A DNA stretch of 33,593 nucleotides. Source: a bacterium (lineage in GTDB: Bacteria; Cyanobacteriota; Sericytochromatia; S15B-MN24; VGJW01). The first letter of the stretch is position 1. The number at the start of each line of letters is the position of its first letter. Positions 1,558 to 30,662 of the stretch are shown here, in pieces. Location: NCBI GenBank assembly GCA_021781555.1, contig JAJXWQ010000039.1, forward strand, positions 1-33,593, written 5' to 3'. Both the position numbers and the translations under genes were made by a program. The notes under the pieces are model-generated. The model was not told the origin of the DNA. It saw nothing but the letters and a program-made list of their open reading frames with translations, and did not search any database.

Positions 1558-1603
1558 GCTCCATCCGGGTTGGTCTGGCAAGCGTTATCCCAAACGAGGA
1601 CTC

Positions 1604-2440
1604 ATGAAAATCCTGCTCGAGGGCAACATTTCCTCTATCAGCTTTCCCAATCTCATCCAGCTGCTTCGCATGGAGCAGAAGACGGTCAAGCTCGAGCTGA
1701 CCCGCGTCGAGGTATCGCAATCCGCCGAGATGTACTTTCTCAAGGGCAACCTCAAGTCCGCCACGGTCAACTCGATCCGGGGCGATGACGCGATGTTCCG
1801 GATCACCACGTGGTGGACGACCGGAGAGTTCAAGGTCCTCGCGGTCTCGGACGACGATGTGCCCGATGCCAATGTCACCCGTCCGATCGACTTCCTGCTC
1901 ATCGAGGCCATGCGGCGCATGGACGAAGACCAGGCCTTCCACGGTCTGCTACCCGACCTCACGAGCGCGCTGAGCTTCACCCAGGAGGCCCTCGAGGCCT
2001 TCGAATGGGATCGTTCGGAGCCACCAGAGTGGATCCCCCACTGGATGCGCCGTCTTCCGCGCAGCTTCTCGGTGGCCCAGCTGTTCGACCTTTCGGAGCT
2101 CGGTCACCAGGAAACCTGCAACTCCCTCAAGGCCTTGCTCTACACCAACGGCGCCTTCGCCCACACCGGCGACGACGATCCAGCGTACAAGCCGATCGAA
2201 CGTACGCGGTTCGACTCGTTCGCCCTCATCGTGATGGAATTCGTGGGCTATGACGTGGCCCGCAACCTCGTCGAGACCTCGGTCCAGGAGATGGGGATCG
2301 TCGACATGGAAAACCTGACGTTCGGCCAGATGGTAGACCTGTCCGATCGCCTCGGCATGGCGATCAGTCGAATGGTCGGGTTCGATCAGGGCCAGGACGC
2401 CATGCGCAAGCTCCGGGCCCGCATCACGAGCTTGCTTTAG
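1604..2440 (+). CDS. DUF4388 (PatA-like N-terminal) domain protein
   Basis: 278 aa, cytoplasmic. Residues 1-85 follow the DUF4388 pattern: an LEGNISSISFPNLIQLLRM start, then a 'YFLKGNLKSATV' strand pair (function: a ligand or output module in gliding, chemotaxis-like and heterocyst regulators such as PatA), then a Trp-rich WWTTGEFKV end. The remaining about 190 residues are helical and unassigned, with 'SFSVAQLFDLSELGHQETCNSLKALLYTNGAFAH' arranged like a second, winged-helix-like copy of the module. The start at 1604 is chosen because AAACGAGGA lies just upstream and the domain begins there; the frame is open further upstream but that part overlaps the previous gene. The TAG stop is directly followed by a palindromic repeat. 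Confidence 0.82.
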   Translation: MKILLEGNISSISFPNLIQLLRMEQKTVKLELTRVEVSQSAEMYFLKGNLKSATVNSIRGDDAMFRITTWWTTGEFKVLAVSDDDVPDANVTRPIDFLLIEAMRRMDEDQAFHGLLPDLTSALSFTQEALEAFEWDRSEPPEWIPHWMRRLPRSFSVAQLFDLSELGHQETCNSLKALLYTNGAFAHTGDDDPAYKPIERTRFDSFALIVMEFVGYDVARNLVETSVQEMGIVDMENLTFGQMVDLSDRLGMAISRMVGFDQGQDAMRKLRARITSLL

Positions 2441-2524: not shown

Positions 2525-3154
2525 TCACGGGGGGTGCGGGAGCACGAGCACCATCCGGTAGGGGTTTCGCGGCTCCGGAGAGGCGATCACGAGTTCGTGA
2601 TCGGCCACCACGATGGCGATGCGGTAGCGGTACGGCGAGAGCTGAAACTGGACGAGCTGGCCTGTGACCGTCCAACCGTCCGGCAAGAGATCGCTGCGCA
2701 CGAGGAGCTCCACCAGGTCGACCAGGGTGTCGGCCCGGGGATACTCGTTCACGCCCCGGATCGCGCCGTCGAAATAGCCGTCGAGCGCGACCCGCAGCAT
2801 TTCCAGGCGCAGGCGCGCCTGTTCGAGCGGATCGGCACGGGTCGTCAAGGGCGGCAGCGTCACGCCGGGAGGCACCGGCACGACCCAGCGATTTCCCGCC
2901 GAATCGAGCAGCACGCCGTAGCTCCACCCAGGCGGCAAGGGCAACGGCTGTCCGGACCCGGACGAGGCGGCGGAAGGCGAGGCGGCGGGGGTCGGCTCAG
3001 AAACGGCCCGCAGAGAGTTCGACGCGACCGCACGAGCCAGGCCAGGCCCGACCGACACGGAGGCCGACGCCCCAGCCTGCGGACTGGGCGTTGCCGAGGC
3101 AGCGAAGACGACCATGGCCGAGAGCAACCCGAGCATGGCATCCACACTGGGCAA
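2525..3154 (-). CDS. Exported unknown protein, about 205 aa, possibly pseudopilin-like
   Basis: The N-terminus (MLGLLSAMVVFAASATPSPQA) reads as a signal peptide with no strong positive charge, followed by a low-complexity Ser/Ala/Pro stretch to about residue 70. The C-terminal about 115 residues are ordered. The order 'LEMLRVALDGYF', 'NEYPRADTLVDLVELL', 'LLPDGWTV' and beta strands resembles the globular part of type IV pilins/pseudopilins (helix, YP, short segment, strands), but no prepilin peptidase motif or long hydrophobic helix is present. Start is uncertain: TTG at 3154 or ATG at 3136, neither with a good ribosome site. Function unknown. Convergent with the DUF4388 gene. Confidence 0.65.
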   Translation of the reverse strand: MPSVDAMLGLLSAMVVFAASATPSPQAGASASVSVGPGLARAVASNSLRAVSEPTPAASPSAASSGSGQPLPLPPGWSYGVLLDSAGNRWVVPVPPGVTLPPLTTRADPLEQARLRLEMLRVALDGYFDGAIRGVNEYPRADTLVDLVELLVRSDLLPDGWTVTGQLVQFQLSPYRYRIAIVVADHELVIASPEPRNPYRMVLVLPHPP

Positions 3155-3169
3155 TGCCGCCGCACCCGC

Positions 3170-3188
3170 ATAGGGCCTGACGCCCTAT
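3170..3188. promoter_or_regulatory. Inverted repeat upstream of the exported protein gene
   Basis: ATAGGGC and GCCCTAT are perfect 7-bp arms around CTGAC. The site lies 16-34 bp upstream of the TTG start at 3154. It could be an operator. On the + strand it is followed by AGG and five Ts, so it also looks like a weak + strand terminator, although no + strand gene ends close by. Confidence 0.4.
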
Positions 3189-3190
3189 AG

Positions 3191-3237
3191 GTTTTTCAAT
3201 TTGAACGGGCCCGGTTTGACTCACCGGGCCCGGAGCC
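3191..3237 (+). repeat. Palindromic intergenic repeat, copy 2 (short form)
   Basis: TTTGAACGGGCCCGGTTTGA joined directly to CTCACCGGGCCCGG: the outer arms of the family without the inner TGCGC hairpin segment. Located between the permease gene (stop at 3301, - strand) and the next gene on that strand. Confidence 0.75.
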
Positions 3238-3300
3238 CAACCAGGCGAAAGCGCCCTGACTTTGTTGCCGCACCCAGGCAGTGGGCCAGCGTCTACTTCC

Positions 3301-4860
3301 TCAGGATTGCCCGCCAGCTGGAGTCGACTCCCGCAAGGCCTGAACGCGGCTGTGATGACGGCCATAACCGAAGTAAATGACCAGTCCGATGACGAGCCAG
3401 ACGACCAGACGGATCCAGGTGGCAAGGGGCAAGGCCGCCATCATCAAGAGAGACACCGTGATGGCGAGGATCGGGACGAGGGGGACCAGCGGAGTGCGGA
3501 ACGGTCGCGGCAAATCCGGCCGGCGAACGCGCAGGATCCAGACCCCGGCGCTGACGATGACGAAGGCCAGGAGGGTTCCGATGGAAACCAGCTCCCCCAG
3601 CACGGAGATCGGGTAGAGGGCAGCCAGGACGGCAACGACGGATCCCACCACGATCGTCGACAGGAAGGGCGTGCGGAAACGGGGGTGGATGGCTCCGGCC
3701 CAGCGGGGGAGCAGGCCATCCCGGGACATGGCGAAGAAGATGCGAGACTGCCCGAGGAGCAGGACGATCATGACGCTGAACAGGCCGAGCACGGCCCCGG
3801 ATTTGACGAGGAAGGCTCCCCACTGGACGCCCGTGGCGTCGATTCCGACTGCCACCGGGGCCGCGACATCGAGGGCCGAGTAGTTGACGATGCCCGTCAG
3901 CAGGCCCGAGACGGCGATGTAGAGGAGAGTACAGATGACCAGGGATCCGAGGATGCCCCAGGGCATGTCGCGCTGTGGATTCTTGGCCTCCTGCGACGCC
4001 GTCGAAACCGCGTCGAAGCCGATGTAAGCGAAGAAGATGACGGCGGCAGCGCGGGCGACTCCGCTCCAGCCGAACTTGCCGAACTGACCGGCATTGGGCG
4101 GGATGAAGGGATGCCAGTTGGCGGCCACGATGGCGGGGTGATGAAAAGCGAACGCCGCGGCAATGGCGATGAACGCCAGGACGATGGCCACCTTCAGCAC
4201 GACGATGGCCGACGTGACGTTGGCCGACTCGCGGATCCCGAGGATCAAGAGCGCCGAGACGGCGGCGATGCCGACCACAGCCACCAGGTCGAAGAGGCCG
4301 GTCGCGTGCGGCAACGTGGCGGGGTCGATGCCCAGTCGGTGCAGGGTGGGCAGCAACGTGCTCAACACCTCCCAGCGGTGGTCGTACAGCACCATGACGG
4401 TGCCGGGCGTGGCGATCAACTGCGGCGGAATGAGGATGCCCCTATCCTGCAGAAAACTCACGACGTACCCGCTCCACCCGCTCGCCACCGTCGACGCCCC
4501 GAGTGCGTACTCGAGGATGAGATCCCAGCCGATGATCCACGCGACGAGTTCGCCCAGCGTGGCGTAGCCATAGGTATACGCGGACCCAGCCAGCGGGATC
4601 AGCGCCGCGAACTCGGCGTAAGAAAGGCCGGCCAGAGCGCTCGCCAGGCCGGCGATGACGAACGACAGGACGATGGCGGGTCCGGCGTACCGAGCTGCGG
4701 CCTCGCCCGTGAGCACGAAGATGCCCGCACCGATGATGCCCCCGACGCCCAACGTGATCAGGTTGATCGGCCCCAGGGCGCGCCTGAGCGAGTGCTCGCC
4801 GGTCTCGCCGGCTTCGTTCCGCAGGACATCCAGGGGTTTGGTTGCAAATAGATCGGGCAT
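3301..4860 (-). CDS. APC-family amino acid permease (cationic amino acid transporter type)
   Basis: 519 aa, 12 or more hydrophobic helices. The start is the classic APC pattern: a short cytoplasmic N-terminus with LRRALGPINLITLGVGGIIG, then GAGIFVLTGEAA (helix 1 unwound GxGIF substrate-binding motif), then 'YAEFAALIPLAGSAYTYGYATLGELVAWIIGWDLILEYALG', typical of the CAT/YfnA-like branch that takes up basic or branched amino acids by proton symport. 'FFAYIGFDAVSTASQEAKNPQRDMPWGI' is the conserved helix 6-7 segment. Length is normal for the branch. No Shine-Dalgarno sequence precedes the ATG, but a promoter-like pair lies 11 nt upstream. The exact substrate cannot be read from sequence. Confidence 0.92.
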   Translation of the reverse strand: MPDLFATKPLDVLRNEAGETGEHSLRRALGPINLITLGVGGIIGAGIFVLTGEAAARYAGPAIVLSFVIAGLASALAGLSYAEFAALIPLAGSAYTYGYATLGELVAWIIGWDLILEYALGASTVASGWSGYVVSFLQDRGILIPPQLIATPGTVMVLYDHRWEVLSTLLPTLHRLGIDPATLPHATGLFDLVAVVGIAAVSALLILGIRESANVTSAIVVLKVAIVLAFIAIAAAFAFHHPAIVAANWHPFIPPNAGQFGKFGWSGVARAAAVIFFAYIGFDAVSTASQEAKNPQRDMPWGILGSLVICTLLYIAVSGLLTGIVNYSALDVAAPVAVGIDATGVQWGAFLVKSGAVLGLFSVMIVLLLGQSRIFFAMSRDGLLPRWAGAIHPRFRTPFLSTIVVGSVVAVLAALYPISVLGELVSIGTLLAFVIVSAGVWILRVRRPDLPRPFRTPLVPLVPILAITVSLLMMAALPLATWIRLVVWLVIGLVIYFGYGRHHSRVQALRESTPAGGQS

Positions 4861-4871
4861 TCTGGGGAGAA

Positions 4872-4900
4872 ACGCTAGCAGAACTCAAGTTCCCCAGCAA
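4872..4900 (-). promoter_or_regulatory. Likely promoter of the permease gene
   Basis: On the - strand: TTGCTG (4895-4900), 17-nt spacer, TAGCGT (4872-4877), then 11 nt to the ATG at 4860. Predicted leader is only a few bases and no ribosome site is visible. Confidence 0.5.
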
Positions 4901-4943
4901 GGTCCAGGGCCCGTGCAAACCGCCGGCGAGGGCGCGGCCGTTG

Positions 4944-4952
4944 TGATAGTCT
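4944..4952 (+). promoter_or_regulatory. Extended -10 promoter, leaderless geometry
   Basis: TGATAGTCT is an extended -10 (TGn plus TAGTCT) exactly 6 nt before the ATG at 4959. No -35 or Shine-Dalgarno sequence is evident. Confidence 0.5.
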
Positions 4953-4958
4953 ACGAGC

Positions 4959-5516
4959 ATGCACTCGACGAATCGCACTCTGGCCTGGCGCGTGGCTCTT
5001 GCAACGGTATTCCTGCTGGGGGGGGCCCTTTCCGTCGGGGCCCGTCCGGAGGCAAGCCGTCCGGCCCGGCCCCGACTCGCCAAGGCGGCCCTGCCGGCCC
5101 CGCCGCCCTGGCCGCGACCGACCGGCACCCTCATGCGCATCCACGCCGCCGGCCTGCAAGCGGGGCGTGCTGAGGGCACCGTGCTCCACATCCACCAGCA
5201 CCTCGACGTCTTCTACAATGGCCGGCGCGTCGTCGTTCCAGCAGGTATCGGCCTCGGGGCGGGTTTCTACTCCGAGGTCCACACCCACACCACCAGCGGG
5301 GAGATCCACGTGGAGAGCCCCGTCGTGCGAACCTTCACCCTGGGGGAGTTCTTCACCGAGTGGGGCGTCCCGCTCAAGGGCGCCAGGGTGTACGTGAACG
5401 GCCGCAAGGCGCCGGATCCTCAGGCCGTCGTCCTGCGCGACAAGGAGGAGATCGCCGTGGTCTTCGGCAAGCCGCCGGCGATCCTTCCCCGCGTCTATCC
5501 TGGCTACCGCCTGTAG
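4959..5516 (+). CDS. Exported His-rich conserved protein
   Basis: 185 aa. Signal peptide at residues 1-28 (basic start, hydrophobic VALATVFLLGGALSVGA), a Pro/Ala/Arg-rich spacer to about residue 55, then one compact domain. The domain has HIHQHLDVF (His77, 79, 81), the strand 'VVVPAGIG', VHTHTTSGEIHVESP (His108, 110, 117) and FTLGEFFTEWGV. I recognise this layout from a conserved extracytoplasmic family in Actinobacteria and related groups, sometimes beside thioredoxin-like or copper-handling genes. The clustered histidines suggest metal binding. Function is not established; the metal role is inference. Convergent with the zinc-ribbon gene 34 bp away. Confidence 0.75.
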   Translation: MHSTNRTLAWRVALATVFLLGGALSVGARPEASRPARPRLAKAALPAPPPWPRPTGTLMRIHAAGLQAGRAEGTVLHIHQHLDVFYNGRRVVVPAGIGLGAGFYSEVHTHTTSGEIHVESPVVRTFTLGEFFTEWGVPLKGARVYVNGRKAPDPQAVVLRDKEEIAVVFGKPPAILPRVYPGYRL

Positions 5517-5550
5517 GCCGTTCCGGGGAGTCCCTCGGGATACCGCGGTT

Positions 5551-6120
5551 CTAGCCGCGCTGCTTCCAGTAGACCCGGACGAACTCCTCGTCCGGGATGA
5601 AGCGGATATCCAACTCGCCGCCGAGATCCCGCTGGATCGCCTTCCCGATGGTCTCGGCAAGCCACTGGCTCGTGGTCTCGATCTCCATCTTGGTCCCCGC
5701 GGTGTGCCAGGACACGACCCGGTGCACCGGATCATCCCGGCGCGAGTCTTCCAGGATGTTGTAGACGAGGTTCCGGATCTCGTCCTCCTGCCCGCGCACG
5801 GCCTGGCCTTCGAGCCGGACCCAGCCGTCGACCCGGCCCGCACGCACGCGAGCGCAGCCCGGGCACAGCGTAGGCTCGATGGCGCGGCCGGCGGCATTCC
5901 GGATCCGGGCGATCGTCTCGGGATCCGTAACCCAGCGCTTTTCCGCCGAGACCGCAGCGCAGGCTGAGCAGACGCGCACCGCCCCTGGGGTCCGCTTGCG
6001 CACCCGCTTGCGGCGCTCGGTATCGGTCCGATCGCGCCCGATCTGGCCGGTCATGTCCAGGGCGTCGGACCGCCGGTTCCAGCTGGACCGGGGCCGGGTG
6101 GAGATGTTCTTGCCAGACAT
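5551..6120 (-). CDS. BCAM0308-family zinc-ribbon protein
   Basis: 189 aa, basic N-terminus. Two CxxC pairs (Cys51/54 in VCSACAAVSAEKRW and Cys86/89 in LCPGCARV) form a probable zinc ribbon. They are followed by 'GWVRLEGQAVRGQEDEIRNLVYN', VHRVVSWH and TSQWLAETIGKAIQ, ending FVRVYWKQRG. This order (C..C-RW, CPaC, G.v.L.G, N.E, T..LA..iG.A, vRv.W.R) is that of the BCAM0308 family, distantly like the NMD3 N-terminus. Its role is not established. The start is decided by GGGGAGGA just upstream of the ATG at 6120; the frame also runs upstream through a repeat, which is not coding. Confidence 0.82.
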   Translation of the reverse strand: MSGKNISTRPRSSWNRRSDALDMTGQIGRDRTDTERRKRVRKRTPGAVRVCSACAAVSAEKRWVTDPETIARIRNAAGRAIEPTLCPGCARVRAGRVDGWVRLEGQAVRGQEDEIRNLVYNILEDSRRDDPVHRVVSWHTAGTKMEIETTSQWLAETIGKAIQRDLGGELDIRFIPDEEFVRVYWKQRG

Positions 6121-6184
6121 GCAATCCTCCCCTCTGTGGCCGGGATATCCCGACCCGGGACGCGGGAACGAGACGCCGGCTGTA

Positions 6185-6237
6185 CCTTTTGCCGTTTGAA
6201 CGGGTCCCGTTTGACTCCTCGGGCCCGATCCAGGCAA
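6185..6237 (+). repeat. Palindromic intergenic repeat, copy 3 (short form)
   Basis: CCTTTTGCCGTTTGAACGGG, then TCCC fused directly to GTTTGACTCCTCGGGCCCGA. The inner hairpin of the long form is cleanly absent. Lies 15 bp downstream of the small CxxC gene (- strand) and 64 bp upstream of the zinc-ribbon gene. Confidence 0.8.
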
Positions 6238-6252
6238 CCGCGGTCACCGTGG

Positions 6253-6519
6253 CTAGCCATCCGGCGTCTTGCGCAAGCTGTAGCCCAGATGCCGCACGCG
6301 GTCGTGGATCTCCTTCGAGCCCACGACTGCAGCCACGAACTTGACGACGACGGTTCCCCACACGTCGTCTGGACCGTCGAGCCGCTCCGGAGGCGGCTGG
6401 ATGTGAACCGCCACGACCCCATCTACAGCTGACAGCCCGTCGAAGAGACGCCGCGCGCAGTAGTTGCATGCCAGCTCCTCGACATCGAATCGGATCTCGT
6501 TCATCTTGCTCGCGATCAT
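6253..6519 (-). CDS. Small HMA-like CxxC protein
   Basis: 88 aa. FDVEELACNYCARRLFDGLS has a CxxC at residues 18-21 at the start of a helix. It is followed by 'VDGVVAVHIQPP', a strand 'TVVVKFVA' and the helix 'KEIHDRVRHLGYSL', the beta-alpha-beta-beta-alpha-beta order of heavy-metal-associated (HMA) domains. The loop between strands 2 and 3 is longer than usual. A metal or redox role is inference. Its ATG overlaps the stop of the upstream ROK kinase (ATGA), and GGGGGAGA lies about 8 nt upstream, so the two genes are translationally coupled. Confidence 0.7.
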   Translation of the reverse strand: MIASKMNEIRFDVEELACNYCARRLFDGLSAVDGVVAVHIQPPPERLDGPDDVWGTVVVKFVAAVVGSKEIHDRVRHLGYSLRKTPDG

Positions 6520-7520
6520 CGGCCTGTCTCCCCCCCTCCACGGGTTCCACCCAACGCTCCGGATTCAGTGGCCAGGCGCCCGGCGGTCCTGGCCAGGAGC
6601 ACGGCGCCGATGATCGGAGCTTCGCGGCCGAATTCGGCGGGAGCCACCTCGTGGGGACATTCCATGCCCCAGTCTCCATGGCGCCGGACGACCTCGCGCA
6701 CCCGGGCCGGCAGGGTCGGGATCGCCCGGACCACGCCTCCCCCCAGGACGACGCGGTCCGGATCGAGAAGCGTGACCGCGTTGGCGATCACCAGACCAAG
6801 GGCGTCGGCGCTCTCCGCGATCGCCCGCAATGCCAGGGAATCCCCCGCGCTCTCGGCGCGCCCGATCTCCTCGGCCGTGACCCCGCCGCCGGCCGTCATC
6901 TGGATCTCCGACGGTTCACCGGCCAGCAAGGCCCGCATGACCCGATGACACAGCGCCGGCCCCGACGCGATCTCCTCCAAGCGGCCCCGGCGCTGGCCGA
7001 AGCCGTTGGTCCCCCCGACCGGGAGAAAGACCCGCCCTAGCTGGCCGGCGGCGAAGTGGCGCCCCTCGTACAGCCTGCCGTCCAGGACGAGGCCGGCCCC
7101 GACCCCCGTTCCGACGTACACGCCGAGCAGCGACTCGGCCCCTTTTCCCGCACCTTGCTGCCACTCGGCGACGGTCGCCAGACCGTTGTCGTTGCCGATG
7201 AAGACATCCCACGGCAGCCGGGCCCTCAGCTCGTCCCGCAAGCGGACACCGTGCCATCCCAGTGCGGGAGAGGCTTTGACGGTGCCGGTCTGGCGGTCGA
7301 CAACCCCGAATACCGCCACGCCGACCCCCAGGACCGAGGCCGGCGGGATGTCCCGGGCCACGCGACGGGCGATCGCCGCCATGGCGTCCACGGTCCGACC
7401 CACCTCCCAAGGCGCCGCTACCGGCTCGCGCTCCAGTCGGATCACGCGACCGTCCGTGTCGGTGAGGCCGGCCGAGAGCTTCGTGCCGCCGAGGTCGATG
7501 CCGATCAGGTGGTATGCCAT
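6516..7520 (-). CDS. ROK-family sugar kinase, zinc-site variant
   Basis: 334 aa, cytoplasmic. The N-terminal phosphate-binding motif IGIDLGGTKLSAGL is intact, as are the catalytic region 'FIGNDNGLATVAEW' (Asp of the ND pair) and the second phosphate motif 'YVGTGVGAGLVLDG'. ROK kinases phosphorylate glucose or related hexoses (glucokinase, N-acetylmannosamine kinase, fructokinase). Here the family's AGE.GH and CxCGxxGCxE zinc motif reads AAGQLGRVF and 'NGFGQRRGRLEEIASG': all zinc-ligand cysteines and the histidine are missing, and the sugar-binding Glu is Gln. No HTH is present, so it is not a ROK repressor. Substrate unknown; it may have changed specificity. Coupled to the CxxC protein by a 4-bp overlap. 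Confidence 0.85.
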   Translation of the reverse strand: MAYHLIGIDLGGTKLSAGLTDTDGRVIRLEREPVAAPWEVGRTVDAMAAIARRVARDIPPASVLGVGVAVFGVVDRQTGTVKASPALGWHGVRLRDELRARLPWDVFIGNDNGLATVAEWQQGAGKGAESLLGVYVGTGVGAGLVLDGRLYEGRHFAAGQLGRVFLPVGGTNGFGQRRGRLEEIASGPALCHRVMRALLAGEPSEIQMTAGGGVTAEEIGRAESAGDSLALRAIAESADALGLVIANAVTLLDPDRVVLGGGVVRAIPTLPARVREVVRRHGDWGMECPHEVAPAEFGREAPIIGAVLLARTAGRLATESGALGGTRGGGETGR

Positions 7521-7587
7521 CTTCCGAAACTTTTCGTTACAATCCTCTCACCCGCCGGAGGTCCTCACAACGCCTGGAAGCTGGCCT

Positions 7588-7662
7588 CGGCGCGGTCGCC
7601 TTGCCGCGCAACCGGGCCCCGTTTGACTCATCGGGCTCGATCCGATCCAGGCCGGGAGCACT
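7588..7662 (+). repeat. Palindromic intergenic repeat, copy 4 (long form, left arm lost)
   Basis: GCGCGGTCGCCTTGCCGCGC, AACCGGGCCCCGTTTGACTC, ATCGGGCTCGATCC and GGGAGCACT, ending immediately at the TAG stop (7663-7665, - strand) of the DUF5335 gene. The GTTTGAACGGG arm is not recognisable on the left. Confidence 0.78.
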
Positions 7663-8022
7663 CTAGTCGAAGCGGACGATGGTCTTGACGGTGGCGCAAG
7701 AAGAAGGATCGACGCCCTCGATGTCGAGTGCCAAGGGTTCACCCCGGGCGCCTTCCTCGACCCAGATGATCTGAGCGTTCAGGCGCTGCACGAGGCGATC
7801 CCCCGTGACGTCGTCACCGACCTCGATGTCGAGACTTCCTCCTTCCGAGCCCTTCTCCTCGTAGAAGATGGCTTGCAAAGGCGCGTGTTCGGCAACCGGT
7901 TCAACGCCCGTCTCCTCGCTCTGGACCGTCACGGTGACGTGTGGATGCTCGGCGTGGGCGCGATGGCTCAGCGAGTTGAAGTAAGGACTCCACTGTTCCT
8001 TCGGGATCTTCCGGGTGGTCAT
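7663..8022 (-). CDS. DUF5335-family protein
   Basis: 119 aa, acidic, soluble. MTTRKIPKEQWSPYFNSLSH at the start, 'HVTVTVQSEE', 'APLQAIFYEE', 'DRLVQRLNAQIIWVEEGARG', and 'LDIEGVDPSSCATVKTIVRF' at the end match the DUF5335 layout (T+.ip..eW..ff..ls; v.v......; PL..i; I..p..i; lqIes.dg..tll+F). Function is not established for this family. AAGGAGG 7 nt upstream fixes the ATG. It follows grpE by 67 bp on the same strand, so it is probably the third gene of the dnaK-grpE operon, suggesting a stress context. Confidence 0.8.
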   Translation of the reverse strand: MTTRKIPKEQWSPYFNSLSHRAHAEHPHVTVTVQSEETGVEPVAEHAPLQAIFYEEKGSEGGSLDIEVGDDVTGDRLVQRLNAQIIWVEEGARGEPLALDIEGVDPSSCATVKTIVRFD

Positions 8023-8089
8023 GGCATGCCTCCTTGATCGGCCGTGTGACCCTGGGGCCCTCGGCCCAACCGAGCCCGGTCCGCGGCAA

Positions 8090-8734
8090 TCAAGGGCCCT
8101 CGACCGGCTCGGAAACTCCCTCCACAGGCTCGACCGGGATCCGCGCTTCGCGCCTCGGCGGGATCCGGTGCGGGCCCGAGGGCTCGCCTTCGCCCAGCCC
8201 GACCACGACCCGGGCTGGTCGCAAGAGGTCACCGTTCAGCGTGTAGCCCGGCTCGACCTCCTTGACCACGCGGTCTGCAGGACCGGCCTCGCCCCCCACC
8301 GCCTCGTGGCAGCCGGGATCGAACCGCTCCCCGGCGCATTCGAGCCGCGCGACCCCCTGACGGCTCAGGATCTCGTCCAGATGGCGCCGCACGATCCGGA
8401 CACCGCCGAGGACGGACTCCGCGCTCTGGTGGGACAGGGCGCGATCCAGGTCGTCGGCGACCGGCAGGAATGCCCGCAGGATCCGCTTGCGGTCGGCCGC
8501 TTGCTGCTCTGCGGAACTGCGTTCGGATCGCTTGCGCACGTTGTCGGTCTCGGCGGCCTGGCGCAAGAGGCGATCGCATTCGCGGTCGTGCTCGGCGATC
8601 TTGGCGTTGAGGCTGGCCCTGGCCTCCTTGAGCTCCAGCCGGCAGCGGGCCAGCTCCTCCTCCAGGTCGGTCTCGGCCACGTGTTCTCGGGCCGGACTCA
8701 CCTGCGGGTGAAAGCCTTGGAACTCCTCGTCCAT
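8090..8734 (-). CDS. grpE: GrpE, nucleotide exchange factor of DnaK
   Basis: 214 aa. A helical dimerisation region (EEELARCRLELKEARASLNA, then 'NVRKRSERSSAEQQ') precedes the four-helix segment ILRAFLPVADDLDRALSH and the beta-wing 'FDPGCHEAVGGE...RVVKEVEPGYTLNGDLLRPARVVVG', all standard GrpE. GrpE releases ADP from DnaK. The about 30-residue tail rich in Pro, Glu and Arg is unusual and probably disordered. GGAGGAAAG upstream supports ATG 8734 over a GTG at 8752. Located 52 bp after dnaK on the same strand. Confidence 0.93.
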   Translation of the reverse strand: MDEEFQGFHPQVSPAREHVAETDLEEELARCRLELKEARASLNAKIAEHDRECDRLLRQAAETDNVRKRSERSSAEQQAADRKRILRAFLPVADDLDRALSHQSAESVLGGVRIVRRHLDEILSRQGVARLECAGERFDPGCHEAVGGEAGPADRVVKEVEPGYTLNGDLLRPARVVVGLGEGEPSGPHRIPPRREARIPVEPVEGVSEPVEGP

Positions 8735-8786
8735 GACCTGTCTTTCCTCCACGCGGTTCAGTCGCCGAAGCTGCCGGCTGCCCGCT

Positions 8787-10607
<1,821 letters not shown>

Positions 10608-12650: not shown

Positions 12651-14510
12651 CTAGCTGGCCTTGGCGCCGGCCTGGAGCTTGCTCATGATGAGCTGGAGCG
12701 TGCTGCGATCGGCGTATTCGTTGACGGCCCAGTTGCCATCGTCTGCGCGGTAGCTCTGGTGGATGCCGTTGGCCTTCTTGAAGGCGACGACCGCGTTGGC
12801 CGTGGCCGGGTCGTAGGAACCCGTCACGCTGACGCCGTAGCCCCACCGCGACAACACGGTCTGCAAGTCCTTGATGGCCGAGGTCTGGGTGCTGCCGGGG
12901 CCGAGCGTGCCGTCGGAAACGTACTTGCCGACCTCCGCCATGAAAGCCTGCACGTTGGCTGGTGTGGGATAGAGGTGATACTGCTGCGCGAGGGCGGCCT
13001 GCTGGGCAGACAATCCGGTGGCAGCGGGCTGGGGCTGACCGACCGAAGCCGGGGTATAGGGGGCCGAGGGAGCCGAGGCGGGCTGGGAAGCGGCCTGCTG
13101 CTGCAGCTTGGCCATGATCCGTTGCAGGGTCTGCGGATCCGCATACTCGTTGACCGCGTAGGTGCCGTCGGCGGCCTGGTAGGTCTGATGCAGACCGTTG
13201 GCCTTCTTGAAGGCCATCACCGCCTGGCTGGTGGCCGCGTCATACTGGCCGCTGACCGACACGCCGTACCCGAGCCGCGAAAGCGCGGTCTGGAGGTCGC
13301 GAATGGCCGAGGTCTGCGTGCTGCCAGGGCCCAGGGCGCCGGCGGTCTGGTACCCCTTGATCTCAGCGATGAAGGCGTTGACGTTCGCCTCGGTATCGAG
13401 GAGGTTGTACTGCCTGGCGATGGCATCGTAGTTGGTCTGCGGCTGGCCAGGTGCCTGGGTCGGTGCCGGGTTGGAACTGGGATTCGACGTGGGCTGAACC
13501 GCCGCGGCAAGCTTCTGCATGATCAGGTTGAGCGTCTGGGCGCCGGCGTATTCGTTCACGGCCCAGTTGCCATCGGTCGCCTGGTAGGTCTGGTGGATCC
13601 CGTTGGCTCGCTTGAATGCGATGACACCCTGTGAGGTGGCCGAGTCGTACTGGCCCGTCACGGGGATGCTGTAGCCGAGCTTATCGAGGGCCTTCTGGAG
13701 ATCGGTGATGGCCGTCGTGTTGGCGCTGCCAGGCCCCAGCGTGCCGTCGGTCTGGTAGCTCTGGATCTCGGAAACGAACGCGCTGACGTTTGCCTGCGTG
13801 TCGAGCAGGCCGTACTGCTTGGCAATGGCGTCGTAGTTGACGGTCGGCTGGCCGGGCGAAGAGGTGGTCGTGGGGGCGGAGACCGGCACACTCGCGACCT
13901 GCTGCTGGAGCTTGGCCATGATGAGCTGCAGGGTCTGCTGATCCGCGTACTCGTTGACGGCCCAGGTGCCGTTGGCGGCCTGGTAGGACTGATGCAAGCC
14001 ATTGGCCTGCTTGAACTGCGTGACAGCCTGCTGCGTGGCAGAATCGTACTGGCCGGTCACAGGCACGTTGTAGCCGAGCTTGGCCAGGGCCTTTTGCAGG
14101 TCCGAGACGGCCGTCGTGTTGGTGCTGCCGGGCCCGAGGGCGCCGTCGTTCTCGTAGCCTTGCACCTCGGAAAGGAAAGCCTGGACGTTGGCCGCCGTCG
14201 GCAACAGCTGGTACTGCTGGGCGATCGCCGCCTGCTGGGCATCGAGTCCGGACGTCGACGAGGCCGTCGGCGTCGTGTTGCTGGAACTCCCCCCGAAGAG
14301 GTGGCCCAGCCAGGAGAACAGGGTCTTCACTGCGCTCACCAATCCGTTCCAAATCGACGTAAGGACATTCGCAACCTTGATGGTTTCCGGGCTCACCTGC
14401 GTGGTGGGCGCCGCCTGAGCTTGCGTGGCGGGAGCCACGACCGACTGCGAGGCAGGGGCCTGGTACGCGGGAATCGGGAACTGGTTCGAGTAACCGGAAA
14501 TCACATCCAT
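12651..14510 (-). CDS. Peptidoglycan-binding-repeat protein, four units
   Basis: 619 aa. Four near-identical units at about residues 89-204, 224-337, 359-472 and 499-615, joined by Pro/Ser/Thr/Gln linkers. Each has Q(Q)Y.LL.T.ANV.AF..E, then D(G/A).LGPGS, then a PG_binding_1-like core (DLQKALAKLGY, VTGQYDSAT, AVTQFKQANG), then HQ(S/T)YQA.(N/D)G.(W/Y)AVNEYAD..TL. The core normally binds peptidoglycan. There is no Sec signal peptide: residues 1-45 are Pro/Gln/Ala-rich and residues 47-73 (VANVLTSIWNGLVSAVKTLF, then SWLGHLFGG) form an amphipathic helix. AAGGAG directly abuts the ATG at 14510, so GTG at 14504 (codon 3, 6-nt spacing) may be the real start. Export route unknown. Confidence 0.85.
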   Translation of the reverse strand: MDVISGYSNQFPIPAYQAPASQSVVAPATQAQAAPTTQVSPETIKVANVLTSIWNGLVSAVKTLFSWLGHLFGGSSSNTTPTASSTSGLDAQQAAIAQQYQLLPTAANVQAFLSEVQGYENDGALGPGSTNTTAVSDLQKALAKLGYNVPVTGQYDSATQQAVTQFKQANGLHQSYQAANGTWAVNEYADQQTLQLIMAKLQQQVASVPVSAPTTTSSPGQPTVNYDAIAKQYGLLDTQANVSAFVSEIQSYQTDGTLGPGSANTTAITDLQKALDKLGYSIPVTGQYDSATSQGVIAFKRANGIHQTYQATDGNWAVNEYAGAQTLNLIMQKLAAAVQPTSNPSSNPAPTQAPGQPQTNYDAIARQYNLLDTEANVNAFIAEIKGYQTAGALGPGSTQTSAIRDLQTALSRLGYGVSVSGQYDAATSQAVMAFKKANGLHQTYQAADGTYAVNEYADPQTLQRIMAKLQQQAASQPASAPSAPYTPASVGQPQPAATGLSAQQAALAQQYHLYPTPANVQAFMAEVGKYVSDGTLGPGSTQTSAIKDLQTVLSRWGYGVSVTGSYDPATANAVVAFKKANGIHQSYRADDGNWAVNEYADRSTLQLIMSKLQAGAKAS

Positions 14511-14701: not shown

Positions 14702-15739
14702 CTAGCTGTTGGGCAGACCGGCCTGCTGCATCATGAGCTTGAGCGTCTGCGTATCGGCGTACTCGTTGACGGCCCAGTTGCCATCGGCCGCCTTGTAGGT
14801 CTGGTGCAGGCCGTTCTTCGTCTTGTAGGCGATGACCGCCTGGCTGGTGGCCTGGTCCCAGGTTCCGGTCGGGTTGACGGCCGAGAATCCGAACTTGTCG
14901 TGGAGGAGCTGCTGGAGCTGCTTGATATCCGCGGTGTCGGCGCTGCCGGGCCCCAGGGCGCTGCCGTTCTGGTAGCCCTGCACCTCGGTCAGGAACGCCT
15001 GGACATTGGTGGGATCGGCAAGCAGCCCATACTGCTGCGCGATGGCCTGCCAGTTCTCGACACCGCTGGTGGGCTGGCTGACGGGGGCAGCAGGGGTCGA
15101 CTGCCCGGCCGTCGGATTACCGGTCGACGCAGGCGTCTGGCCCTGCATCAGCTGCCGCATCTCCGAAAGCGTGTTGTTGTCGACGTAGGCGTTGACCGCC
15201 CAGCTACCATCGGCCATCTGGTAGGTCTGGTGGATGCCGTACTTCTGCTTGAATGCGATGACGGCACTGGACGTGGCCTGGTCCCAGGTGCCCGAGGGAT
15301 GGACGGAATAGCCCCAGCTCGCCAGGGCCTGCTGGATCTGGGTGATGGCATTGCTCGAGGGACTCCCCGGACCCAGCGTGCCGTCCTGCTCGTACGAACG
15401 CGCCTCGACCAGGAATGCCTGGACGTTGGCCTCGGTCGGCAGGAGATTGTACTGCTGGGCCACCTGCGCCGACGTGGAGTCCAGAGCCTGGGTCGACTGG
15501 CTGCTACCGAAGAGCTTGTTCCAGACGCCCTTGAAGAAGCTGACGACTCCGCTCCAGATGCCCGCGAGGACGCTCAGGAAGCTCGAACCGGTCGAGGTCT
15601 GCGCCGTTACCGGACCCGGGCTTGCGACCGGCGAGGCCGGCGAGGCGACCGAGACGGGCGCCAGCACCGGCGGCGTGGGCGTGGGGCCGCCTGCATAGGC
15701 ATAGGGGCTCGGGCGCCTGGAGCCGATTGCCGAAACCAT
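14702..15739 (-). CDS. Peptidoglycan-binding-repeat protein, two units (paralogue)
   Basis: 345 aa, same design as the four-unit neighbour. A Pro/Ala/Ser-rich N-terminus (about 1-50) precedes an amphipathic/hydrophobic helix (53-77: FLSVLAGIWSGVVSFFKGVW). Two repeat units follow at about 90-200 and 225-342 with ANVQAFL.E, LGPGS, TGTWDQATS.AVIA(F/Y)K and HQTY..ADG(S/N)WAVN. The first unit is more divergent (VNAYVDNNTLSEMRQL). No Sec signal peptide. AGGAGG 5 nt before the ATG is a strong ribosome site. It ends with its own terminator, so it is not in an operon with the four-unit gene although both probably arose by tandem duplication. Cell-wall association is inferred from the repeat core. Confidence 0.85.
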   Translation of the reverse strand: MVSAIGSRRPSPYAYAGGPTPTPPVLAPVSVASPASPVASPGPVTAQTSTGSSFLSVLAGIWSGVVSFFKGVWNKLFGSSQSTQALDSTSAQVAQQYNLLPTEANVQAFLVEARSYEQDGTLGPGSPSSNAITQIQQALASWGYSVHPSGTWDQATSSAVIAFKQKYGIHQTYQMADGSWAVNAYVDNNTLSEMRQLMQGQTPASTGNPTAGQSTPAAPVSQPTSGVENWQAIAQQYGLLADPTNVQAFLTEVQGYQNGSALGPGSADTADIKQLQQLLHDKFGFSAVNPTGTWDQATSQAVIAYKTKNGLHQTYKAADGNWAVNEYADTQTLKLMMQQAGLPNS

Positions 15740-15901: not shown

Positions 15902-18900
15902 ATGCGCCGCTTTGTCCTGCTGGCCGTTGCCTTCTGGTTGCTGCTCGGCACCCAAGCCCGAGCCGCGGCGCTGTTTTCCCCTTCCATGCACTGGCGAACG
16001 ATCGTCACGCCGCATTTCCGGGTGAACTATCCGGCGGGGTACCACGCGATCGCCCAGCGCGCCGCCGAGTTCGCCGAGCAGGCCCACGCCAAGCTCGCGG
16101 CCTACATGCACTCTGAGCCGAGCCAGCGCACCGAGCTCACCTTGCTGGACAACGAGGATGCGGTCAACGGCCTCTCGCTGCCCTATCCCAACAACGCCGT
16201 ATACATTTACCTCTCGGCCCCCGACGAGGACGACATCGAGTTCAGCCAGTACGACGACTGGTTGAAGACGGTCATCACGCACGAATACACCCACACCCTG
16301 CACTTCGAGACCCTCGGCGGCATCACGGCCGCAGCCGACAAGATCTTCGGCCGGCTGTTCTTCCCCAACCTCATCCCCGGCGAGCCCTTCTTCCTGGTGG
16401 AAGGCATCGCGGTCACGGACGAGACCCGGTTCACGACCGGTGGCCGGGGGCGGGGCGACGGCTTCGGCATGATCCTGCGCACCGCGGCGCTCGCGGGCCA
16501 CCTCTTGAACATCGATCAGGCCGGCTCCTACGACCTGTACCGGTGGCCCGGAGGGTCCGTCGTCTACATCTATGGCACGTATTTTTACAAGTACGTCCTC
16601 CGGCACTACGGGCCCGACAAGCCGCCGAAGATCTTCCATGCCTATGCCGCCGAGCCCTGGCTTGGCATCAACAGCGCCTTCAAGAAGGTGCTCGGTCGCG
16701 ACTGCTATCAAGTCTGGGACGAGTTCATTGCCGACATCAAGCGGCGATCCGAACTCGAGAAACGCCAGATCATGCAGCACCCGCTCACGGCCTACAGCAT
16801 GGTGACGGATACCGGCCGCTACCACCGGCATCCGGCCTACCTTCCCGACGGCAGGCTCATCTACGCCGAGGTCACCGGCAACTCCACTCCCCACGTGGTC
16901 GCCCTCGGGCCCGGGGCCAAGAAGACGCGTCTGTTCACCAAGTCACCCTTCGGCATCATGACCCCGTCACCCGACGGCAAGTACCTCTACCTCGACGGGC
17001 AGGCCGACGACGATTCCTACCACTCGTTCAACGACCTGTTCCGCTACGACTTCGCGCAGCACCGGATCGTCCGCCTGACCCGGGACAAGCGCATGAACAG
17101 CCCCGCCATCGCTCCGGATGGCAAGCGGATCATGGCCGTCGTCAACCGCGGCTACACGAACGACCTCGCGATCCTCGACACCGGCGGCTCGATCCTGTCG
17201 TTCCTGACGCACAACACCCGCCGTGTCCAGTACTCGGGCCTCACCTGGAGTCCGGACGGCAAGTGGGTCGCGGCCTCGGTCTGGAAGGACGGCTGGCGCG
17301 ATATCGCCCTGATCAACCCGTCCACGGGGGCTCTGACGTGGCTCACGCGAGACGATGCCGCCGATTACGATCCGGCCTGGTCCCCCGACGGCAAGTGGCT
17401 GGTGTTTGCGTCCGATCGCACCGGAGTCTTCGACCTTCACGCCATCCGGATGAGCGATCGCAAGCTCTTCCAGGTCACGAACGTCCTCACCGGGGCTCTC
17501 GAGCCGGCATTCAGTCCGGATGGGAAGACCCTGGCCTTCACCGTGTACGACTGGAAGGGCTACGACATCGCGACGATGTCTTTCGACCCCGCCGAATTCC
17601 GGCCGGATTCGAGCGTCATCTACCGGGCGAACGACGCCGGCGGAGCCTTCACGCTCGAGACCAACGCCTCGGCCAGCACGGCCCTGCCAGAGGCGAAGGT
17701 CGGGGAGTTCATCCCGGAGCAGACGCAGGTCGCCACCGATGTCGAACCCCCGATCCTGCCGGAATTCGCAACCCACTCCTACAATCCCTGGCCGAGCTTG
17801 CGGCCCAAGGCCTGGGTTCCAAATCCCTTCCTCTTCGACGAGAAGGGTGGCGGCCTGGGGGTGTCCATGGCCGGCAGCGACGTCCTCTTGCAGCACACCT
17901 TCAGCGCGACGGTGGGGCTAGGTGGCAGCTTGCGGCCCCAGTACGCCATCTCGTACACGAACGACGTCTGGGCACCCACGATCGGGCTGTCGGTCTCGGA
18001 TCTCCCGACCGAGTACGCGCTGTCCACGAACGTGGGATCCATCACGACCTGGCGGAGGCAGATCGGGCAGGCCGTTTCCGTCACCTATCCCGGCATTCCC
18101 AACGCGCTGCTGGGCAATCTCTTTGTCACGGGTGACTACCTGACCGCAGGTCTCTCCCACCTCCAGACCCTCGATCTCGGTTCCTTCGATTCCTCGGGAA
18201 ACCCGATCAGCCTGGCGGGCTCGAGCGGGAGCAGCGCCGCCGCCCCCTCGGTCGCGGCTGCCCTGACCAATCCCCCCGGAGTACCCCACCTGGGCGACAC
18301 GACCGAGCTCGACCTGCGCTACCAGCACGCGAACGACTACGCGTACGGCTACTCCGTGAGCCCCGAGAGGGGGTCGCTCCTGGCAGTCGACTACGTCAAG
18401 TCCAGCCCCCTGTGGGGTAGTATCGTTTCCTACGATCACCTGGACGTAGACTACCGCACCTTCATCAAGGCCCCGTTCCCCCACCAGGTCCTGGCGTTGC
18501 GATGGACCGCCGGGCTCAACCTGGGCGATCCCACGGGCGGCTTCGAGCTCGGCGGCTTCCAGTCGTCCTATCCGGTGAACATCGTCGACGCCCGGGCCAT
18601 CGGTCCCTTCAACCAGGTGCCTCTCCGTGGTTACGGGCTCGAGGGCGGCGACCGGATGTTCGCGCTGAACTCCGAATATCGCTTCCCCTTGGGCGAGATC
18701 CAGCGCGGCGTCGGGACGCTGCCGATCCTGTTCTCCCGCTGGTACGGGGTCGTCGGCTATGACATCGGCAATATCTGGACGGGGCCGTATCCGGCCAACA
18801 ACCTCCGCCAGTCGGTCAGCCTCGAGGCGCGCCTGCAGCTGGTCGTGATGAACGTGCCCCTGGAGCTCCGCGTGGGGCTGGCCCAGGGCACCGGCCCGCT

Positions 18901-19012
18901 GGGCCCCGTCTCGATGATCCCGGGCTCCCAGCGGCCCACCGCGTCCTGGGTGCTCGGCACCAACCTCATGCCCCCGCCCGACCTCTACTGGGATGTCGGC
19001 ACGTTTTTCTGA
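15902..19012 (+). CDS. Secreted metalloprotease-propeller-outer-membrane barrel fusion
   Basis: 1036 aa in three parts. (1) Signal peptide MRRFVLLAVAFWLLLGTQARA, then a gluzincin (peptidase MA-like) domain: HEYTH zinc motif at His127-Glu128-His131 and the third ligand Glu167 in FFLVEGIAV. (2) About residues 300-570, a TolB/PD40 beta-propeller with repeated 'SPDGK' blades (for example SPDGKWLVFASDRTG). (3) From about residue 640 to the end, a beta-barrel: alternating strands, 'YTNDVWAPTIGLSVSD', RGYGLEGGDRMFALNSEYRF (the Omp85/surface-antigen RGY...EYRFPL motif) and a C-terminal aromatic strand ending FF. Predicted as an outer-membrane-anchored protease; which side the protease faces cannot be told. 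A paralogue begins at 30744. Substrate unknown. Confidence 0.85.
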   Translation: MRRFVLLAVAFWLLLGTQARAAALFSPSMHWRTIVTPHFRVNYPAGYHAIAQRAAEFAEQAHAKLAAYMHSEPSQRTELTLLDNEDAVNGLSLPYPNNAVYIYLSAPDEDDIEFSQYDDWLKTVITHEYTHTLHFETLGGITAAADKIFGRLFFPNLIPGEPFFLVEGIAVTDETRFTTGGRGRGDGFGMILRTAALAGHLLNIDQAGSYDLYRWPGGSVVYIYGTYFYKYVLRHYGPDKPPKIFHAYAAEPWLGINSAFKKVLGRDCYQVWDEFIADIKRRSELEKRQIMQHPLTAYSMVTDTGRYHRHPAYLPDGRLIYAEVTGNSTPHVVALGPGAKKTRLFTKSPFGIMTPSPDGKYLYLDGQADDDSYHSFNDLFRYDFAQHRIVRLTRDKRMNSPAIAPDGKRIMAVVNRGYTNDLAILDTGGSILSFLTHNTRRVQYSGLTWSPDGKWVAASVWKDGWRDIALINPSTGALTWLTRDDAADYDPAWSPDGKWLVFASDRTGVFDLHAIRMSDRKLFQVTNVLTGALEPAFSPDGKTLAFTVYDWKGYDIATMSFDPAEFRPDSSVIYRANDAGGAFTLETNASASTALPEAKVGEFIPEQTQVATDVEPPILPEFATHSYNPWPSLRPKAWVPNPFLFDEKGGGLGVSMAGSDVLLQHTFSATVGLGGSLRPQYAISYTNDVWAPTIGLSVSDLPTEYALSTNVGSITTWRRQIGQAVSVTYPGIPNALLGNLFVTGDYLTAGLSHLQTLDLGSFDSSGNPISLAGSSGSSAAAPSVAAALTNPPGVPHLGDTTELDLRYQHANDYAYGYSVSPERGSLLAVDYVKSSPLWGSIVSYDHLDVDYRTFIKAPFPHQVLALRWTAGLNLGDPTGGFELGGFQSSYPVNIVDARAIGPFNQVPLRGYGLEGGDRMFALNSEYRFPLGEIQRGVGTLPILFSRWYGVVGYDIGNIWTGPYPANNLRQSVSLEARLQLVVMNVPLELRVGLAQGTGPLGPVSMIPGSQRPTASWVLGTNLMPPPDLYWDVGTFF

Positions 19013-19085: not shown

Positions 19086-19094
19086 TGGTAGCAT
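19086..19094 (+). promoter_or_regulatory. Extended -10 element before the WYL gene
   Basis: TGGTAGCAT. It overlaps the first ATG (19093) and lies 10 nt before the in-frame ATG at 19105, which argues that translation starts at 19105 on an almost leaderless mRNA. Confidence 0.45.
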
Positions 19095-19683
19095 GCCTTC
19101 GCAAATGACCGAGCCTTCTCACATCCCCCTTCGCCTCAGCCTGGACGAGGCTGTGGTTCTGCTCATCGGCGTCAAGCTGCTGGGCGAAATGGTAGAGAGC
19201 ATCGAGATCAACGGCACCTCCCATGGGCACCTGATCTCCGACCTCGCCAGCAAGCTCGGCCAGGTCATTCCCGAGGATCTGCGCCACGTGACGGGCGAGA
19301 TCGTCGAGGACATCCTCGTTTCCAATCTCAATGGAATCGACGGCGTCCAGGCGCAGGACGACGAAGAGGAGTACCCGGCTCCGATGTACCCGATCGAGAC
19401 CACGTTGCCGGTCCTGGTCGAGGCCATCGAGAAGCGCGTCAGCGTCGATGTCACCTACTACTCGATGGCGACCGAAGAGATCGCCAGGCATCGTCTCGAT
19501 CCTTACGGGATCAAGCAGGTCGGGGATCTGTACTGGCTCGTCGCCTATGCCCACGAGCGCGACGAGCGCGCCGTTTTCCGGGTCGATCGCATCAAGGAGC
19601 TCGCCAAGACCGCCGCGAGCTTCGAGCGCCCTTCGGGGTTCAAGATCGACGAGTTCTTCGCCGACGATCCGCAGGACTGGTAA
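19093..19683 (+). CDS. WYL-domain protein without a DNA-binding head
   Basis: 196 aa (192 if started at ATG 19105). Residues 1-75 (PLRLSLDEAVVLLIGVKLLG, then 'HLISDLASKLGQVIP') correspond to the helical middle region seen in PafB-like WYL regulators. Residues about 103-190 are the WYL domain: LPVLVEAIEKRVSVDVTYYS, 'RHRLDPYGIKQVGDLYWLVAYA' and FRVDRIKELA. The winged-helix that normally precedes these parts is absent. WYL domains sense nucleic-acid or nucleotide ligands. The start region shows no coding for a helix-turn-helix upstream, so this is a genuinely headless form rather than a mis-called start. It may act by binding a partner regulator (inference). Convergent with ppc. Confidence 0.78.
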   Translation: MPSQMTEPSHIPLRLSLDEAVVLLIGVKLLGEMVESIEINGTSHGHLISDLASKLGQVIPEDLRHVTGEIVEDILVSNLNGIDGVQAQDDEEEYPAPMYPIETTLPVLVEAIEKRVSVDVTYYSMATEEIARHRLDPYGIKQVGDLYWLVAYAHERDERAVFRVDRIKELAKTAASFERPSGFKIDEFFADDPQDW

Positions 19684-29396: not shown

Positions 29397-30662
29397 ATGC
29401 GGATCGGGACGACGGCGGCGACGCGCCAGAAGAGCGCCCGGCCCCGAGCCCTCGGCCAGCCGAGCGCAAGCCTCTTCAGCGGCCGCGACATGCTGGTCCG
29501 CGCTCGCGAATCGAGCCTCGCCTCCCGGGCGACAGCGACCGGCAAGGGGGCCCTGGCAGCGGCCGAAAACGGACTGAGCTGGCTCCTGGGCGAGGCCAAG
29601 CAGGGCTTCACCGACTTCTCGCATGGCCTGCAGGGCCTGGTCTTCGGGGTCAGTTTCAAACCCTTCCAAACGCGAACGATCACGAACGATCCCGGCGATG
29701 CCAATCATCCCGACTCCGAGGATCTGCAGCAGGCGCAGCAGGACACGGCGGCCAACGCCGCGGTCGAGGCTGCAGCGGTCGCCAAGCTCTCGCCCGGCGA
29801 CCAGAAGAAGTACGCCGCCCTGGTGGTGCTCACCGGGCCGACGGCGGCCAACCCCACCGGCTTCCCGCTCGCCCGGCGCGCCGTGCAGCAGATGCTGCTG
29901 GCGGGCACGCTGATCGGCCAGCAGGATCTCGCCGGCGGGAACCGGCTGCTCGACAACCTTTCCACCCTGGCCACCGAGCCCCTGGCCAAGGGGATCGACC
30001 GGGCGACCATCGTCAGCCAGACGGCGATCGAGGTCCAGAACCCCGCCCGCATCGACCAGCAGGCCAAGGGGACCTGCGTGGCGACCACGGCCGGCATCCT
30101 CCTGGCTCGCCTGCACCCCGCCGAGTACGTCCGCCTGATCGCGGGTCTCGCCACGCCCGCTGGCCAGGTCAAGATGGCCGGCGGTGACACGCTCACGCGG
30201 GTCAGCGACTGGAACAACGACAACGACGGCGATCGCACCACCAGCCAGCGGCTGCTGGCCCCGGCCCTGATGAACGATGGGCAGTTCCCGCTGTTCCACT
30301 ACGACAACTCGACGGATCGCGACAAGATCGGCCCCATTCCGGTCGGAGGTGGCCTCATGGCCTCCGGGTCCGCGCACATCAACAGCGAGCTCGAGGGACA
30401 TCCCTACGACGCCCACACCGTCTTCTTCTTCGACCGCAACTCCGACTGGAACGCGGTCAAGGAGGCGCTGGCCGAGGGCAAGGGTCCGATCCCCGTGGGC
30501 GTGATGTGGTCGGATTCCGACGGCAACGTGGGGGGCCACGAGCTCCAGATCGACAAGGTCGCGAACGGCACGGTCTCCTACCTCAACCCCTGGGGCCAGT
30601 ACGAGACGATGTCCGAGGCCGAGTTCGAAAAGCATCTGACCGACGCGGAGATCCCCGCGTAG
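29397..30662 (+). CDS. Putative papain/calpain-like cysteine protease
   Basis: 421 aa. Residues 1-50 are basic and Ser/Ala-rich, with no Sec signal peptide; 51-85 (GALAAAENGLSWLLGEAKQG, then 'FTDFSHGLQGLVFG') form an amphipathic helix. The second half has the order of a papain-fold triad: QQAKGTCVATTAG (Gln221 six residues before Cys227, as the oxyanion Gln and catalytic Cys are in papain), VGGHELQIDKV (His381) and SYLNPWGQYE (Asn397 in NPWG, as in calpains). I know no named family for it; the protease call is inference from the triad. GGGAGGAG 6 nt upstream fixes the start. It lies 81 bp before the second protease-barrel gene on the same strand. Confidence 0.7.
   Translation: MRIGTTAATRQKSARPRALGQPSASLFSGRDMLVRARESSLASRATATGKGALAAAENGLSWLLGEAKQGFTDFSHGLQGLVFGVSFKPFQTRTITNDPGDANHPDSEDLQQAQQDTAANAAVEAAAVAKLSPGDQKKYAALVVLTGPTAANPTGFPLARRAVQQMLLAGTLIGQQDLAGGNRLLDNLSTLATEPLAKGIDRATIVSQTAIEVQNPARIDQQAKGTCVATTAGILLARLHPAEYVRLIAGLATPAGQVKMAGGDTLTRVSDWNNDNDGDRTTSQRLLAPALMNDGQFPLFHYDNSTDRDKIGPIPVGGGLMASGSAHINSELEGHPYDAHTVFFFDRNSDWNAVKEALAEGKGPIPVGVMWSDSDGNVGGHELQIDKVANGTVSYLNPWGQYETMSEAEFEKHLTDAEIPA

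Follow-up and report, generated by a model that had tools for sequence, protein, structure and literature searches.

A zinc metallopeptidase domain, a TolB-like propeller, and an Omp85-type barrel joined in a single polypeptide of a Sericytochromatia genome and its relatives in many bacterial phyla

Gene and domain architecture

The window (the whole stretch of 33,593 nucleotides analyzed here) spans all of contig C51, from a genome of 3.82 Mb that is 98.7% complete. An open reading frame (ORF) on its forward strand (positions 15902 to 19012), with a coding-like GC3 of 0.89, encodes a 1036-aa protein that consists, according to the ORF list, Pfam, and an AlphaFold2 model, of a signal peptide, a gluzincin metallopeptidase domain, a six-bladed propeller, and an Omp85-type barrel. 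The predicted Sec-type signal peptide (residues 1 to 22, MRRF...GTQARA-A; positions 15902 to 15967, forward strand), with cleavage read as MRRFVLLAVAFWLLLGTQARA-A, is recognizable in the sequence and coincides with low pLDDT values at residues 15 to 22; no lipobox Cys is found in these 22 residues. The full-chain model, built from a 68-sequence alignment, has a mean pLDDT of 87.4 and a pTM of 0.89.

In a Pfam search with the query protein alone, PD40 was the sole match above the cutoff (E-value of 2.9e-24), and the combined NCBIfam and Pfam searches of this single protein detected nothing besides the propeller. Among 41 diverse relatives searched against Pfam at E-values up to 0.1, PD40 was found in all 41, Omp85 (PF01103) in 21, and Peptidase_MA_2 (PF13485) in 9, with best E-values of 1.2e-14 for Omp85 and 6.2e-8 for Peptidase_MA_2; the curated Peptidase_MA_2 model has no match in the query itself and is matched above the cutoff by a paralogue on contig C18 of the same genome. 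The sequence-only reading had proposed that a protease, a propeller, and a barrel follow one signal peptide in one polypeptide, and profiles, AlphaFold2 modeling, and fold searches agree on this point, confirming that all three are joined in a single 1036-aa chain. The full-chain structure prediction that it had suggested as a check places 16 strands at residues 637 to 1033 and puts both HEYTH and E167 on helices. The suggested profile check gave a divided answer: the query is positive for PD40 and negative for Peptidase_MA and Omp85, and matches to all three occur among the relatives. The self-anchored design that had been drawn from the fusion is likewise backed by profile matches, the predicted structure, and fold comparisons. 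Zinc distances and barrel closure were read from predicted secondary structure and fold matches and have the standing of model-based predictions.

The metallopeptidase domain (residues 23 to 300; positions 15968 to 16801, forward strand) is alpha/beta in the full-chain model, and its assignment to the clan MA(E)/gluzincin fold comes from a stand-alone model (pLDDT 92.7, pTM 0.91), Foldseek, and the Peptidase_MA_2 matches in relatives. In the PDB, Foldseek ranks M1 aminopeptidases, an M61 peptidase, and collagenase G highest (E-values of 4.4e-5 to 4e-4, probability 1.00, TM-scores of about 0.41 to 0.55 by query length), and a sequence profile of the domain weakly matches a cold-active M1-type aminopeptidase (E-value of 0.0073). 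The domain has the HExxH...EG zinc site and helix arrangement in common with Peptidase_MA_2 and with M1, M61, and collagenase G, but here it is fused to a propeller and a barrel. Conservation and the model identify the zinc-binding and catalytic motif HEYTH (residues 127 to 131; positions 16280 to 16294, forward strand) in a predicted helix at residues 120 to 135, and invariance in the alignments points to E167 of E167-G168-I169 (EGxA motif; positions 16400 to 16408, forward strand), in a predicted helix at residues 163 to 176, as the third zinc ligand; the sequence from E167 onward is EGIA. HExxH and a putative Glu ligand on a later helix, the arrangement expected of gluzincins, are thus both present in the domain. 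The distance from H131 to E167 is longer than the His-to-Glu spacing of M1 peptidases, which we take to be 18 residues.

In 18 homologues collected by a whole-genome search with no motif filter, H127, E128, H131, E167, G168, and A170 are invariant, and HExxH is present in 30 of 30 homologous ORFs gathered by profile. E167 and G168, neither of which was selected for, are conserved in 68 of 68 sequences of the larger alignment; the invariance of HExxH in that alignment is discounted, because the underlying scan patterns included HE[YF]TH and it is therefore partly built in.

The six-bladed TolB/PD40 beta-propeller (residues 306 to 587; positions 16817 to 17662, forward strand) was recognized by Pfam, profile search, the model, and Foldseek. 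The AlphaFold2 model has six blades of four strands each, the full-length profile matches TolB with an E-value of 6.4e-34, and TolB ranks first in the Foldseek search with the full chain; the query does not pass the TolB equivalog model TIGR02800 (90.8 bits versus a cutoff of 343). The fold and repeat sequence are those of TolB and other PD40 propellers, but TolB itself is a stand-alone periplasmic component of the Tol-Pal system without a protease or a barrel. The propeller is followed by residues 588 to 636 (positions 17663 to 17809, forward strand), where the alignment and the model indicate a disordered linker and a Y-x-P-W-x-S-L-x-P-K motif with an invariant Y627. Model confidence is very low for residues 578 to 613, which are probably disordered.

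The remainder of the chain (residues 637 to 1036; positions 17810 to 19009, forward strand) is a predicted 16-stranded barrel of the Omp85 superfamily, as judged from the strand list (16 predicted strands within residues 637 to 1033), profile and Foldseek comparisons, and PF01103 matches in relatives. The C-terminal part of the full-length family profile matches the Deinococcus BamA structure 8xnb (E-value of 8.8e-8), as does the full chain in Foldseek (E-value of 6.1e-8). Conservation marks two motifs: R909-G910-Y911 (positions 18626 to 18634, forward strand), which is the RG(F/Y) motif of Omp85 proteins and lies in L6, the loop joining strands 11 and 12, and E-Y-R-F-P at residues 925 to 929 in strand 12 (positions 18674 to 18688, forward strand). 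In the 68-sequence alignment, R909 is found in 67 sequences, G910 in 66, and Y911 in 61 (with Phe in 4 more). Both R909-G910-Y911 and E925-Y926-R927-F928-P929 match what we take to be the L6 and strand-12 motifs of Omp85 proteins. Because the strand number is even and the topology that of Omp85, both ends of the chain would be on the periplasmic side. No POTRA domain was detected by Pfam in the query or in the 41 relatives, and the peptidase and propeller occupy the N-terminal part. The Omp85 superfamily is defined by its barrel, and POTRA-less subfamilies are listed in the main text of a survey of the superfamily (PMC4104836).

Copies, gene neighborhoods, and distribution

The genome carries three copies of the three-domain gene. 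The second one, also in the window (positions 30744 to 33593, forward strand), has the same architecture and an intact HEYWH...EGMA; 950 aa of its product are seen, and the C terminus is cut by the contig end. The third copy, on contig C18, encodes a protein in which all three domains were matched (Peptidase_MA_2 at 44.7 or 41.2 bits in two scans, with a cutoff of 32.4; Omp85 at 24.2 bits in the genome search and 21.8 bits in the protein scan, with a cutoff of 24). The three copies are about 35% identical. In a maximum-likelihood tree they fall into three old, distinct lineages, and orthologues of each are present in further genera or families of the order; a recent duplication was rejected on the basis of this tree. 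In another member of the order (locus L040, genome G009, contig C23, about 2672 to 8907), two three-domain genes lie side by side in divergent orientation. Directly upstream of the second copy, positions 29397 to 30662 (forward strand) encode a 421-aa protein without a Pfam match; in its C-terminal part (GTCVATTAG...GGHELQIDKV...YLNPWG), Cys, His, and Asn follow one another in an order that resembles papain-like cysteine peptidases. Elsewhere in the window, the ORF at positions 1100 to 2440 (forward strand) has its likely true start at about 1600 (MKILLEGNISSISFPNLIQLLRMEQKTVKLE...), and its product presumably resembles a PATAN/DUF4388-type domain protein.

A WYL-domain gene (positions 19093 to 19683, forward strand) begins 80 bp downstream of the three-domain gene, and two genes with PG_binding_1 repeats (positions 12651 to 14510 and 14702 to 15739, reverse strand) are transcribed divergently from it; both of their products carry a common LGPGS...AVNEYAD repeat. 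In three further genomes from the order (loci L040, L122, and L041/L123, the last two designations belonging to the same contig), WYL and peptidoglycan-binding-repeat genes likewise accompany the three-domain gene; beyond the order, they do so in none. The flanks of 80 relatives contain no neighbor gene common across phyla, so that a shared operon partner was rejected and the WYL and peptidoglycan-binding neighbors are considered order-specific. The genome also encodes a separate, typical Omp85/BamA candidate (a 779-aa frame on contig C31), a BamB-like propeller that falls below the cutoff, and M48 peptidases.

At least 466 relatives were confirmed in a scan of species genomes, for which the 18-sequence alignment was too diverse as a seed and a different alignment was used. 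The best 80 of these are nearly all full-length single ORFs of about 900 to 1500 aa (one, L109, is cut by a contig end, and the N termini are inflated in some GC-rich loci). Among the matches listed, these 80 come from Nitrospirota, Gallionella and other Nitrosomonadales, Myxococcota, Geomonas, Spirochaetota, WOR-1/Saganbacteria, WOR-3, Poribacteria, and Cyanobacteriota; the phyla of the relatives include Cyanobacteriota (Sericytochromatia), Nitrospirota, Myxococcota, Pseudomonadota, Thermodesulfobacteriota, Spirochaetota, and others. Outside this genome, the closest named relatives among the matches listed are MAGs from the Sericytochromatia/Tanganyikabacteria group of Cyanobacteriota (UBA8530, RYN_339, S15B-MN24, and K_Offshore_40m_m2_103), and the named non-MAG carriers include Geomonas, Anaeromyxobacter, and Polyangium. 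Of 292 genomes of the phylum Cyanobacteriota, 16 yielded a match to the protease domain, all of them in the class to which the window belongs. Twelve genomes from other phyla have one strong copy each, accompanied in 4 of the 12 by one or two weak extra matches. The earlier suggestion of two paralogues within 15 kb holds if it is taken to mean two copies in the window altogether, not two besides the gene at 15902 to 19012, and the description of an expanded system was an overstatement: the copies are old and only about 35% identical, most other phyla have a single close copy, and no neighbor is conserved.

Relation to known Omp85 proteins

Outer membranes rely on Omp85 barrels for insertion and translocation. 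The databases searched contain no family name for the three-domain design, and a partial literature search, covering articles without their supplements, returned no paper describing an HExxH peptidase in the WD40-Omp85 group. PF00149, which we take to be a metallophosphatase family rather than an HExxH peptidase, is the family assigned to the Omp85 "Metallo" subfamily, which likewise combines an enzyme domain with an Omp85 barrel, but for which the main text describes no propeller (PMC4104836). In 2014, Heinz and Lithgow gave the name WD40-Omp85 to a subfamily with an N-terminal TolB-like propeller, an Omp85 barrel, and no POTRA domain (PMC4104836). In the 1036-aa protein, too, a TolB-like propeller stands ahead of an Omp85 barrel, and as a POTRA-less Omp85 protein with a propeller it fits this subfamily as described in the main text, which, in contrast to what is seen here, mentions no preceding metallopeptidase. 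PlpD and other patatin-Omp85 (type Vd) proteins have the same order of an N-terminal enzyme and a C-terminal Omp85 barrel; however, PlpD has a patatin-like lipase and a POTRA domain in place of the metallopeptidase and propeller, and no patatin domain was matched by Pfam in the query or the 41 relatives. BepA (M48) is likewise an HExxH peptidase proposed to work at the site of outer membrane assembly, but it belongs to another peptidase family and is a protein on its own, with no barrel attached.

Proposed function and alternative explanations

The predicted export signal, the gluzincin fold with conserved zinc ligands, the six-bladed propeller, and the 16-stranded barrel, all supported as parts of one polypeptide by sequence and modeling, lead us to favor, with moderate confidence, an outer-membrane-anchored periplasmic zinc metallopeptidase with a propeller gate, whose substrates would be unfolded or misassembled envelope proteins. 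The chain would be exported by Sec, and its C-terminal barrel would insert into the outer membrane, placing the TolB-like propeller where the barrel opens to the periplasm. There, the propeller could capture unfolded or misassembled polypeptides, or limit their access, and hand them to the HEYTH/E167 zinc site. The propeller job of BamB/TolB and the protease job of BepA at BAM, which are split elsewhere, would thereby be held on one tether. BepA is a Zn peptidase that acts on an outer membrane protein at BAM (PMC8423444), and in PlpD, also an enzyme-Omp85 fusion, the enzyme domain is exclusively periplasmic (PMC11116518). Periplasmic rather than surface placement is favored by the even-stranded Omp85 barrel and, purely by analogy, by the PlpD precedent; that side of the membrane, the proteolytic activity, the substrate class, and the gating by the propeller are all deduced features of this proposal. 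Since a typical BamA candidate is encoded elsewhere in the genome, the protein would represent an added function, and since M48 peptidases are encoded as well, envelope proteolysis need not depend on it. That no neighbor gene conserved between phyla hints at a substrate or partner counts against the periplasmic peptidase.

The strongest rival is surface display, in which the Omp85 barrel would export its own protease and propeller in a type Vd-like manner, and the enzyme would digest external proteins or process surface proteins. An enzyme followed by an Omp85 barrel is the layout seen in type Vd proteins, the long, probably disordered linker (residues 578 to 613) would suit threading, and many carriers among the matches listed are environmental bacteria, some of them presumably from predatory or degradative lineages. 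We nevertheless know of no precedent for the transport of two folded domains, about 560 residues, through a barrel of the Omp85 type, and no processing site or release signal is seen in the protein. FplA of Fusobacterium has been classed among the type Vd autotransporters (PMC5724010), but PlpD, whose enzyme domain stays in the periplasm, is the prototype of that class, and we regard self-export as rather unlikely.

Less probable still is a factor for outer membrane protein assembly or translocation, with the barrel inserting proteins, the propeller serving as a built-in BamB, and the protease being secondary. Such a role would agree with the retention of the Omp85 motifs across the 68-sequence alignment and with the BamA-BamB-like fusion that Heinz and Lithgow proposed for WD40-Omp85 proteins (PMC4104836). 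It sits poorly, however, with the absence of a POTRA domain and with the typical BamA candidate on C31, on account of which a replacement of BamA was rejected; the zinc site, moreover, is so strictly conserved that peptidase activity would be expected to be central. That the architecture itself was misread, as an annotation or assembly fusion or as a degenerate, inactive protease fold, is very improbable: Pfam sees only PD40 in the query, but the single-ORF layout recurs in relatives from many phyla, the zinc residues are invariant in the 18 homologues, and the fold is predicted with confidence for both the full chain and the protease domain. The conserved full-length layout contradicts this explanation, which is largely refuted.

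Implications

The periplasmic peptidase may exemplify a widespread, unnamed class of outer membrane machines. In these, a propeller gate and a zinc protease would be attached to the Omp85 barrel itself for self-contained quality control or processing of outer membrane proteins, independent of BamB- or BepA-type partners; we put this generalization forward tentatively, as somewhat less than an even prospect. The fusion of a conserved metallopeptidase to an Omp85 barrel in multiple phyla suggests that envelope proteolysis has been built into the Omp85 scaffold, much as a lipase was in PlpD. The Geomonas, Anaeromyxobacter, and Polyangium strains that carry the three-domain gene allow direct testing, and an Omp85 protein found in multiple phyla with a conserved metallopeptidase gives the uncharacterized WD40-Omp85 group a concrete, testable function.
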